Assembly (NCBI GenBank): GCA_002839765.1
Contig: PGYR01000018.1
Coordinates: 1 to 48,327 of the forward strand
Origin: Ignavibacteriae bacterium HGW-Ignavibacteriae-4
GTDB lineage: Bacteria > Bacteroidota > Ignavibacteria > Kapaibacteriales > UBA2268
Length of the DNA: 48,327 nucleotides
Direction: 5' to 3'
The notes beneath the pieces were generated by a model that searched no databases, was not told the origin of the DNA, and saw only the letters and a list, made by a program, of their open reading frames with translations. This document shows, one piece after another, positions 3,832 through 7,010 of the stretch; position 1 is the first letter of the stretch, and each line of letters starts with the position of its first letter. Position numbers and translations under genes: made by a program.

Positions 3832-4305
3832 ATGGCAATAGAAATAGGAAAGAAAGCACCTGCATTTAAAGCAATGGCAAGCGGTGACAAAGAAATTAGT
3901 TTGAAAGATTATGAAGGTAAATGGCTTGTATTATATTTTTACCCAAAAGATAATACTTCTGGTTGTACGAAGCAAGCGTGTGGATTCAGTGAGAACATAA
4001 AGCAATTCGAGAAGCTAGATGCAGAAATATTAGGCGTTAGTCCTGACTCTGTCAAATCACACGACGGATTCAAATCGAAGTATGATTTACATTTCGATTT
4101 GCTAAGTGACCCAGAGAAAGAAATAGCTACAAAATACGATGCTTACGGTGAAAAGAGTATGTACGGAAGAAAGTATATGGGAATAATCCGTTCTACTTTC
4201 ATTATAGATCCGGAGGGCAAAGTAGCCGCAGAGTACAAAAAAGTAAAAGTAGCCGGTCACATAGAAAAAGTAATGAAAGATTTGGAAGAGCTAAAAAGCA
4301 AGTAA
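3832..4305 (+). CDS. bcp: Thioredoxin-dependent peroxiredoxin (Bcp/PrxQ family)
   Basis: A 157-residue AhpC/TSA-type peroxiredoxin that reduces hydrogen peroxide and alkyl hydroperoxides in the cytoplasm with electrons from thioredoxin. The active-site stretch YPKDNTSGCTKQAC carries the peroxidatic C45, within the PxxxTxxC motif, and the resolving C50 five residues later, the spacing typical of atypical 2-Cys Bcp/PrxQ enzymes. Length matches the family. It starts 6 bp after dnaX, and its TAA overlaps the ATG of the tatD-type gene by one base (TAATG), so the genes are almost certainly co-transcribed. Confidence 0.95.
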   Translation: MAIEIGKKAPAFKAMASGDKEISLKDYEGKWLVLYFYPKDNTSGCTKQACGFSENIKQFEKLDAEILGVSPDSVKSHDGFKSKYDLHFDLLSDPEKEIATKYDAYGEKSMYGRKYMGIIRSTFIIDPEGKVAAEYKKVKVAGHIEKVMKDLEELKSK

Positions 4306-5747
4306 TGATAGATACTCACGCACATATAGATACTGAAGCATTTGCAGAGGACATAGAAGAAGTAATAGCTAGAGCCAAAGCTGTAGGAGTAGAGCATATA
4401 GTAATACCTGCTATAGAGCCAGATGCTTTCGATAATTTGGTAGCTCTTGTAGATAAATACGATATGCTATACTTCGGGATTGGTGTTCATCCGCATAGTG
4501 CTGATAAGTTCGATGACTCTGTAGAACAAAGAATAAGAGAGATAGCAAAGCACCCGAAATGCGTTGCTATTGGAGAGATTGGACTAGATTACTATTATAA
4601 TGAATTATCTGCAGCCGATGTACAAAAGCATGCTTTCAGAAGGCAGATAGAAATAGCGAAAGAGCTAGGAAAACCAATAATAGTACACAATAGAGATTCG
4701 GATGATGATTTGATAGATATACTTACAGAGTATCAAGATGGAAATTTGAAAGCTGTGCTTCATTGCTTCCCAGAATCAAAAGAATTACTAGAAAAAGCAA
4801 TTCATTTGGGGTTCAATGTATCCTTTACAGGTAATATTACGTTTAAGAAGTCAGAACATAAAGAAGTATTGGAATTAGTTCCTCTGGATAGATTTATGAT
4901 AGAAACAGATTCGCCGTATATGGCTCCTGTTCCGAACAGAGGAAAGAGAAACGAACCGAGCTTCGTAAAAGAAATAGCAAAAAAAATATCAGAGGTTAAG
5001 AATATGAATTATGAAAATATACTAGAGCAATCTACAAAAAACGCAAAGAGTTTTTTCAAGATTATGATGCTAGTTATGGGTATTGCTTTATTTACTCAGA
5101 CTACGTATGCTCAAAGAGAAAACAGTTACAATGATAAATTCTATGAAGACGAAGGCGACTATGATAAGGCTCCTTATCCCAAGTTTATCGGTATAGGTGG
5201 ATTTGTCGGGACGAATACAATTGTTGAAAGTCAAGTCTTTACAGAAGATCCAAATATACCCGATAGAAATATCTCTTATGAAGGTATTAGTTCTTATGGT
5301 GGTACAATAACTTATGGTGGTATAGCTGAGTATTTGGTTTTGCAAGTAGGATACGCTTACTCCAAGAACACGAAAGTACAAGAAGATACACCTGGTAGTT
5401 TACCGAACATACACCAACTAATTGAAGTATCGTCTCTTTGGATTCCAAATCCTCATAATAAAATCAATGTATTCGGTGCTATCGGTCCAAGTTTTATTAT
5501 GAATTCGATTAATGGTGTAGAAAATTCTCAAATCGGTCTTAATGCAGGTGTTGGATTTATCTTCAATATTCCTATAAAAGGTGCTGGTTTATTAAACTTT
5601 GCAGCTGAGTGGAGATTGAATTTCGATTTGGCAGCAGTACAAAGTGAGGTTTTAGTACAGCCAACCCCTAGAGTTGTTACAGCTATTGACTCAAAGAGTT
5701 TTTATTCTATTCCGAGATTGAATATTATATTCTATCCTGATTTCTAG
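4305..5747 (+). CDS. TatD-family DNase fused in frame to a signal-peptide-bearing outer-membrane beta-barrel protein
   Basis: Residues 1-253 form a complete TatD metal-dependent hydrolase: H5-x-H7, E91 in GEIGLDYYY, H128 in IVHNR, H153 in LHCF and D202 in ETDSPY, ending like a normal TatD (EQSTKNAKSFF). With no stop codon, the frame continues into IMMLVMGIALFTQTTYA-Q, which looks like a signal peptide h-region with an AxA-like cleavage site near residue 269. About 210 residues of alternating beta-strand, Gly/Tyr-rich sequence follow, ending in an aromatic residue (FYPDF), as in small outer-membrane barrels. A normal TatD is about 255-265 residues and this is 480. Internal ATGs at 5004 (M234) and 5064 (M254) could start a separate barrel protein. 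Either a true fusion or two nested products is possible. The next gene starts on the base after the stop. Confidence 0.82.
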   Translation: MIDTHAHIDTEAFAEDIEEVIARAKAVGVEHIVIPAIEPDAFDNLVALVDKYDMLYFGIGVHPHSADKFDDSVEQRIREIAKHPKCVAIGEIGLDYYYNELSAADVQKHAFRRQIEIAKELGKPIIVHNRDSDDDLIDILTEYQDGNLKAVLHCFPESKELLEKAIHLGFNVSFTGNITFKKSEHKEVLELVPLDRFMIETDSPYMAPVPNRGKRNEPSFVKEIAKKISEVKNMNYENILEQSTKNAKSFFKIMMLVMGIALFTQTTYAQRENSYNDKFYEDEGDYDKAPYPKFIGIGGFVGTNTIVESQVFTEDPNIPDRNISYEGISSYGGTITYGGIAEYLVLQVGYAYSKNTKVQEDTPGSLPNIHQLIEVSSLWIPNPHNKINVFGAIGPSFIMNSINGVENSQIGLNAGVGFIFNIPIKGAGLLNFAAEWRLNFDLAAVQSEVLVQPTPRVVTAIDSKSFYSIPRLNIIFYPDF

Positions 5748-7010
5748 ATGGGCGTTAAAGAGATTTTACGGAATCTTGGCCCAGGTTTACTATTTGCAGG
5801 GGCAGCAGTAGGTGTATCACATTTGGTACAATCTACTAGAGCGGGTGCGGCTTATGGTTTCGATTTAGTCTGGATTATACTATTAGCTAATGTATTCAAA
5901 TACCCATTCTTCGAAGTAGGTCAGAGATACACTGCGGTTATGAACGAAAGTCTCATCCGTGGGTATGAACGACTTGGTAGATGGGCAGTATGGCTTTTTC
6001 TAATCCTCAATGTTTTCTCTTCAGTACTTACAGTTGGTGCAGTTACTTTCGTTGCTTCAGCTATTTTCAACTATCTTTTTTTCCTTTATACAGGTGTTAC
6101 TTTTGCTGCCGAGACAACTTCTGTATTTTACTTAGTTTTTACCGCTGTGATACTATTTCTTGGTAAATATGGATTGTTCGAGAGTTTTGTGAAATATCTC
6201 ATTATCTCGCTTTCTATACTAACAGTTGTAGCAGTAGCTGTCGCTGCTTCAATTGGCTCTAATGTCTCTCCCGAATTCATACCACCAGAAATACTAAACC
6301 AAGCTGGTATAGGTTTCCTCTTAGCACTAATGGGATGGATGCCTGCCCCTCTTGAACTATCGAGTTGGACTTCACTCTGGGCTCTGGAAAATGACAAAGA
6401 AACAGGAACAAGAAAAGATTTCAAAAACTCAATGCTCGACTTTAACATTGGGTATGTAGTATGTATCTTCTTAGCTATTTGTTTTTTAGCTTTGGGAGCT
6501 TATGTTATGTATGGAACAGGTGAAGTGTTTTCAGGAAATGCTGTAGCATTTACTGAGCAACTACTCTCACTCTATACTACGACAATCGGTCAATGGAGCA
6601 AAGGTATTATTGCATTTATTATGCTCGTTACTATGTTCTCTACGGTTATTACATGTTTGGACGCTTATCCTCGCTCTTTGGCAGAGGCCGTTAAGATAAT
6701 ACACGGCTACCCCTCAGATGATCGTTCTAGCCGCTATTATTGGCCTTTTTTGATAGGTATTACTCTTGCTAGCTCTGTAATTATATACTTTTTCACTAGC
6801 TCATTGACTCTATTCGTAGATATAGTTACTATAATTGCTTTCCTATCTTCACCTGTTATCGCTACTCTCAATTTCTTAGTTATCCGAAAGCCGTTTTTCC
6901 CAATGGAACATAGACCAAAGCCGTGGCTCAATTGGCTATCATACTTCGGTTTGGTATCTTTCTTTGGCTTTGCTCTACTGTATTTGTACAGCATTTCGTT
7001 TATGGGATAG
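5748..7010 (+). CDS. Nramp-related divalent metal transporter with altered ion-binding motifs
   Basis: A 420-residue inner-membrane protein with about 11 helices and the Nramp (LeuT) fold. The TM1 frame GPGLLFAG...RAGAAYGFDLVW aligns column by column with MntH, but the metal-binding D-P-G-N is replaced by G22-V-S-H25. In TM6 the M-P-H motif is M198-P-A-P201, so the thioether-bearing Met and the helix-breaking Pro remain while the His is lost. Loss of the TM1 Asp and Asn ligands implies a different substrate or coordination from canonical Mn/Fe Nramps, as in the Nramp-related outgroup clades. It is the last gene of the dnaX-bcp-tatD run with no gap, and it converges on the next gene with only 2 bp between stops. 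Confidence 0.82.
   Translation: MGVKEILRNLGPGLLFAGAAVGVSHLVQSTRAGAAYGFDLVWIILLANVFKYPFFEVGQRYTAVMNESLIRGYERLGRWAVWLFLILNVFSSVLTVGAVTFVASAIFNYLFFLYTGVTFAAETTSVFYLVFTAVILFLGKYGLFESFVKYLIISLSILTVVAVAVAASIGSNVSPEFIPPEILNQAGIGFLLALMGWMPAPLELSSWTSLWALENDKETGTRKDFKNSMLDFNIGYVVCIFLAICFLALGAYVMYGTGEVFSGNAVAFTEQLLSLYTTTIGQWSKGIIAFIMLVTMFSTVITCLDAYPRSLAEAVKIIHGYPSDDRSSRYYWPFLIGITLASSVIIYFFTSSLTLFVDIVTIIAFLSSPVIATLNFLVIRKPFFPMEHRPKPWLNWLSYFGLVSFFGFALLYLYSISFMG

Follow-up and report, generated by a model that had tools for sequence, protein, structure and literature searches.

A conserved tatD frame in Kapaibacteriales that probably encodes a second, predicted outer-membrane protein from a nested start

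The cytochrome b/c1 precursor FbcH of Bradyrhizobium is a polyprotein with an internal signal, and its exported part is freed by signal peptidase. Other frames contain nested starts, and all same-frame nested starts known to us yield a shorter form of the same protein. The internal-start papers examined likewise report products that are shorter forms of the same protein (PMC11005335). They cover SsaQ, SpaO and HrcQ as well as N-terminal proteoforms of Salmonella and E. coli, in which one frame holds a conserved second start (PMC11005335). We found no literature on a TatD protein with internal translation initiation and a signal peptide, and none linking Kapabacteria and TatD; among the papers listed by a looser search, none concerned a fusion of TatD with a barrel, judging by titles or the beginnings of abstracts.

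The window analysed here is the whole 48,327-nucleotide stretch of contig PGYR01000018.1 from Ignavibacteriae bacterium HGW-Ignavibacteriae-4 (order Kapaibacteriales). Positions 4305–5747 on its forward strand form a single open frame of 480 amino acids without an internal stop, in which a TatD domain is followed by a signal-like stretch and a predicted barrel; the same architecture is present in 114 genomes of the order, which bears out the claim of an earlier sequence-only reading that TatD is fused in frame to a second domain. The TatD DNase domain (4305–5060, forward strand) was matched by Pfam TatD_DNase (PF01026) over residues 2–252 and profile positions 1–253, with an E-value of 3.9e-86 and 289 bits against a cut-off of 27, and this full-length domain exceeds the curated cut-offs of both PF01026 and TIGR00010. 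We take residues 5, 7, 91, 128, 153, and 202 (H/H/E/H/H/D) to be the TatD metal ligands. The last four are identical in all 114 aligned fusions, and residues 5 and 7 are identical in 113 of them, with a single gap at each position. Among the nearest solved structures to the TatD part by sequence are 2gzx and 6l25. A QatD identity proposed by PADLOC was rejected; it is a weak-family match over the TatD part only, as expected from any TatD.

The genome of the window contains a single TatD match, and its neighbours are dnaX, a bcp-like peroxiredoxin gene, and an Nramp-type transporter gene. The peroxiredoxin stop and the tatD ATG share one base in TAATG (4303–4307, forward strand), and the ATG of the Nramp-type gene directly abuts the TAG of the barrel with zero gap (5745–5750). 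The tight packing at these two junctions suggests one transcript. A promoter scan gave 20 sites as compared to 22.7 expected, and no terminator was found alongside it. Among plasmid records, 149 had a TatD match, none of which covered 80% of the query.

Matches were obtained in 120 of 123 genomes of the order (three gave none), and the frame runs uninterrupted over the junction between TatD and barrel in 114 of these 120; the loci of all 114 were examined. The fused relatives include two metagenome-assembled genomes named “Bacteroidetes bacterium” and “Ignavibacteria bacterium”. Five genomes could not be judged, either because the match reaches a contig end (G016, G026, G432) or because only weak matches were present (G426, G468). 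The sequence-only reading had called for a search of related genomes and would have been refuted by relatives in which the two genes are cleanly separate; among the 115 genomes with a judgeable junction, only one, G463, has them apart. From the locus sets we removed L133 (broken frame), L152 (split TatD), and L072 and L073 (duplicates of L009 and L019), and L161 was left out of alignment A5. Several genomes of families f2 and f9 also encode another TatD-like protein, which is weakly similar, about 225–265 amino acids long, and without a barrel (e.g., G059:C8:780161-780595 and G043:C11:5173-5643).

Within the wider class, five genomes of family f13 carry this barrel in frame with TatD. Family f19 has a longer version, and profile comparison showed its C-terminal part to be similar to the first half of the barrel (probability 94, E 1.2e-7). 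In the f19 proteins (L054, L063, L156–L164), which are about 590–625 amino acids long, TatD and a signal-like stretch are followed by an extended charged segment with many R, E, and Q residues and then by an end that resembles a barrel. Elsewhere in the class, TatD occurs alone or fused to a radical SAM domain. Apparent fusions of the latter type were seen at L056, L058–L060, L062, L064, L065, L067, L069–L071, and L075, and the domain (TIGR04038) was confirmed by profile in one of them, L075. Such fusions in other families of the class indicate that the TatD C-terminus acquired different partners in related lineages. When 75 TatD domains are placed on a tree, two changes are needed to account for the 48 barrel fusions among them, and a single origin is not excluded (62% of 200 bootstrap trees). 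As judged from these genome comparisons, the TatD-barrel fusion is real and old.

Downstream of TatD lies a putative signal peptide of 36 amino acids (residues 234–269; 5004–5111, forward strand), with a hydrophobic part at about I253–T266 and a predicted cut after A269. The stretch from I253 to A269 is hydrophobic and ends in TTYA ahead of Q270. A 12-residue segment with a mean hydropathy of at least 2.0 was present downstream of TatD in 113/114 fusions as compared to 0/21 TatD-radical SAM fusions, and 110/114 fusions have an AxA-like cut motif. The region around the last helix of TatD carries a mean of 2.4 K or R residues. By simple criteria only, without a dedicated predictor, the stretch qualifies as a Sec signal peptide, having a positive n-region, a hydrophobic core, and small residues at −3 and −1. 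Both the hydrophobic signal-like segment proposed by the sequence-only reading and its suggestion that the last TatD helix is shared as the n-region of the signal hold.

The predicted mature domain (residues 270–480; 5112–5744, forward strand) consists of an acidic linker and a predicted small beta-barrel, and the final residue of the protein is F. This ending agrees with the beta-barrel-like domain ending in Phe that had been proposed earlier. Residues 254–480 of the window protein match no Pfam or NCBIfam family. OMP_b-brl (PF13505) matches 10/21 family members at E-values up to 1 (best 3.6e-7), and the barrel of G463 scores 25.6 bits against this profile, under the cut-off of 28.7. Structure prediction gave an all-beta model of low confidence (pLDDT 51, and below 50 in the full-length model); Foldseek with this model gave best matches of low TM-score, which are uninformative, and the barrel profile against PDB sequences gave one match at E 0.45, which is at chance level. 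Size, the weak all-beta model, and the matches of some relatives agree with the small outer-membrane beta-barrels of PF13505, while the window member itself reaches no Pfam model. We consider it likely, not proven, from profile and model evidence, that the domain is a small outer-membrane barrel.

In profile searches of the class and the phylum, the barrel was not seen as an ordinary gene beside tatD in unfused relatives. The profile matched 39/197 genomes of the class at E 0.001 (34 of the order and five of f13) and 26/296 genomes of the phylum at E 1e-5, and every match in these searches sits in a frame of at least 410 amino acids. Among the genomes searched, the barrel profile is limited to the order and f13. 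In the eight order genomes with a missing or broken TatD, a whole barrel was found only in G463; G014 has a barrel scrap of 25 positions at a contig end.

Within the TatD part, M234 is an in-frame ATG (5004–5006), and the inferred nested gene that starts there (5004–5747, forward strand) would encode a predicted outer-membrane protein precursor of 247 amino acids in the same frame. We compared ATG codons from −14 to +3 relative to the N of the last TatD helix (NAKxLF). An in-frame ATG in this range is present in 106/114 order fusions as compared to 20/71 unfused TatDs and 4/21 TatD-radical SAM fusions; these controls come largely from other phyla, 67 of the 71 and 10 of the 21 being from a wider scan. 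The ATG stands at −4 in 62 genes and at −12 in 25 (the genus of the window and most of f2 and f7), and further positions are −10, −9, −7, −5, −1, +2, and +3. On a tree built without the ATG region, its position changed at least 17 times and its presence or absence three times, so the conservation of one amino acid does not explain a codon that shifts while its presence is kept. One f2 gene lacking the ATG (L233) has GTG with AGGAG 5 nt upstream. The six f5 fusions (L202, L203, L205, L206, L210, L212) are GC-rich, keep the frame and the signal-like stretch, and have no internal ATG between −14 and +3; they contain a few GTG codons.

A Shine-Dalgarno-like GAGGT lies 7 nt before the internal ATG of the window (4992–4996, forward strand) in codons E230–V231. 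The usual site is GAGGT at 7 nt in most of f1 and GGAG at 9 nt in most of f2. Matches of at least 4 nt were present in 86 of the 106 genes with an ATG and of at least 5 nt in 50, whereas synonymous codon shuffles within the genes gave means of 34.4 and 13.4 and maxima of 51 and 24, respectively, in 2000 rounds. Elsewhere in these TatD genes, in-frame ATGs have such sites in 81/469 (at least 4 nt) and 13/469 (at least 5 nt) cases, and the own start of tatD in 29/113 and 9/113. For the Glu codon four ahead of the ATG, GAG is used in 66/79 genes against 26.7 expected. This choice follows the position of the start: GAG is used at codon −8 in 41/44 cases with ATG at −4 versus 6/18 without it, and at codon −16 in 23/31 cases with ATG at −12 versus 10/65 without it. 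No bias is present at Glu −8 of unfused TatDs (GAG in 16/47, 16.5 expected). Taken singly, f3, f7, and f8 do not reach significance in the Glu-codon test, and tests on independent pairs point in the same direction without significance, with at most five supported pairs.

Near the internal ATG, the mRNA has less structure than elsewhere in the gene, with a mean z of +1.21 (n = 106) as compared to −0.20 to +0.32 in controls. This looseness is a property of the region and not of the ATG alone, as similar z-scores are obtained at the fixed codons −4 and −12. Bacteroidota ribosomes conceal the anti-Shine-Dalgarno (PMC9976891). The 16S tail of four relatives contains CCTCC (the 16S of the window is cut short), and for rpsU, examined for a link to a hidden anti-Shine-Dalgarno, the start was obtained at only 3/12 loci. 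Sites of at least 4 nt precede 44/73 bcp starts, and Shine-Dalgarno sites precede 11/34 starts in the window as compared to 55/283 internal ATGs; together with the tatD starts, these numbers indicate a moderate general use of Shine-Dalgarno sites.

The strength of the internal-start signal differs between families. It is strong in five families with 87 genomes, where ATG and a Shine-Dalgarno match of at least 4 nt occur, respectively, in 49/49 and 48/49 (f1), 20/21 and 20/21 (f2), 3/3 and 3/3 (f8), 13/13 and 10/13 (f9), and 1/1 and 1/1 (f10) genomes. In the other five families, with 27 genomes, it is weak or absent: ATG is present in 8/8 (f3), 3/3 (f4), 0/6 (f5), 1/1 (f6), and 8/9 (f7), and the 4-nt match in only 4/27 genomes (3/8, 0/3, 0/6, 0/1, and 1/9, respectively). 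Outside the order, f13 has the ATG in 5/5 and a 4-nt match in three, and f19 has it in 9/11 (at codon −6) with a 4-nt match in none. Judging by these patterns, a conserved start codon with a ribosome site inside a longer gene is present, except that it is missing in f5 and weak in f3, f4, f6, and f7.

We propose that one frame encodes two proteins, the TatD-signal-barrel product and a barrel precursor from a nested start, and we place the probability of this reading at about three in four. Initiation at 4305 would produce TatD joined to the signal peptide and the outer-membrane barrel, and initiation at the ATG at 5004, guided by the Shine-Dalgarno site in the codons of the C-terminal TatD helices, would produce only the barrel precursor. 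The signal peptide of this precursor would use the last TatD helix as its n-region; Sec may then export the precursor, which would be cleaved behind A269 and end up in the outer membrane. The long product would probably take an N-in/C-out orientation in the inner membrane and be cut at the same site, leaving an active TatD with a hydrophobic tail. Most likely, the greater part of the barrel protein is translated from the nested start, for which there are no protein or ribosome data. The sequences show a conserved fusion with a signal-like stretch, an internal start that recurs, and a synonymous-codon bias toward a Shine-Dalgarno site. That translation begins at the internal ATG is inferred, and so are the export and cleavage of the barrel, its place in the outer membrane, and what becomes of the long product and its activity, including TatD nuclease activity.

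The sequence-only reading had left a choice between an internal signal that releases the barrel and a second start at M234 or M254. The evidence favours a second start at M234, which has the GAGGT 7 nt upstream, and a start at M254 was set aside, as its signal would lack a positive n-region. The first alternative, a polyprotein made from one start whose internal signal inserts during translation and whose barrel is freed by signal peptidase, is not excluded. It accounts for a frame that is kept in all 114 genomes and for the hydrophobic stretch in all but one of them. Because f5 keeps the frame without an internal ATG, a polyprotein alone may suffice there and may be the sole route in that family. 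As a general account it must treat the ATG and the GAGGT as having no role, or suppose that GAGGT slows ribosomes to aid targeting, and it leaves unexplained the excess of ATG codons, their shifting position with kept presence, and the fact that the Shine-Dalgarno-like site goes with the ATG at a fixed spacing. We consider it unlikely as the whole explanation.

In G463, a member of f7, TatD ends with NAMHFFDVK at a stop (L152, 2183–2971) and has bcp-like and dnaX-like neighbours, like tatD of the window. A separate gene at another locus (L153, 3067–3822) encodes the barrel as a protein of 251 amino acids, with an N-terminal signal-like stretch and 27% identity to the internal product of the window over 251 columns. 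By eye, this barrel gene adjoins glycosyltransferase-like genes. The separation indicates that the barrel can be an ordinary secreted protein and that TatD can exist without a tail; this is easier to reconcile with two products than with a single bifunctional protein. A bifunctional protein, in which TatD and the barrel remain linked and TatD either works at the outer membrane or leaves the cytoplasm together with the barrel, would agree with the conserved fusion and with the retained residues presumed to bind metal. It is very improbable, since TatD precedes the signal and would stay cytoplasmic, cut motifs are nearly universal, internal starts are in excess, and G463 carries both as separate genes. 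The loss of a stop codon by sequencing or assembly error, which the sequence-only reading had named as a possible refutation, can be neglected, as 114 order genomes share the in-frame junction and no evidence for an error was found.

The preferred reading, two proteins from one frame, also bears on why the fusion persists. The nested start and the signal lie within the last helices of TatD in the same frame, so a TatD stop is hard to regain: any stop downstream of the nested start would terminate the barrel as well, and one upstream of it would truncate TatD, which makes the fusion hard to undo. The overlap would explain the persistence of the fusion without a need for joint function. A broader version would be an obligatory dual-product gene across the order, in which every TatD is an N-in/C-out polyprotein cut by signal peptidase and anchored by the spent signal peptide, most barrel comes from the nested gene, point mutations can hardly separate the pair (an evolutionary lock), and selection acts on a start that moves along the helix. 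We put this forward only tentatively, with somewhat more doubt than belief. If two products are made, they would be unrelated and have separate destinations in the cell, and the end of an enzyme would at the same time provide another protein with its ribosome site and export signal. The locus would offer a case of two genes hardly separable by point mutation, with more than 100 genomes usable for studying start-site movement, and it gives a reason to search the C-terminal domains of cytoplasmic enzymes for hidden secreted proteins.

Compared with known systems, the TatD part is as complete as TatD/YcfH-type DNases (PF01026, TIGR00010), but it lacks its own stop and continues into a protein predicted to be exported. 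The TatD-radical SAM fusions (TIGR04038), which occur elsewhere in the class and also beyond the phylum, likewise have a C-terminal partner in one frame; this partner lacks a hydrophobic stretch, and internal ATGs are rare. FbcH has the same succession of a cytoplasmic-side domain, an internal signal, and an exported domain, while the TatD-barrel frame indicates a second start with a ribosome site. In SsaQ, SpaO, and HrcQ, the short form belongs to the same protein, whereas here the short product would be unrelated to the first protein, is predicted to be exported, and would take the end of that protein as its signal peptide.
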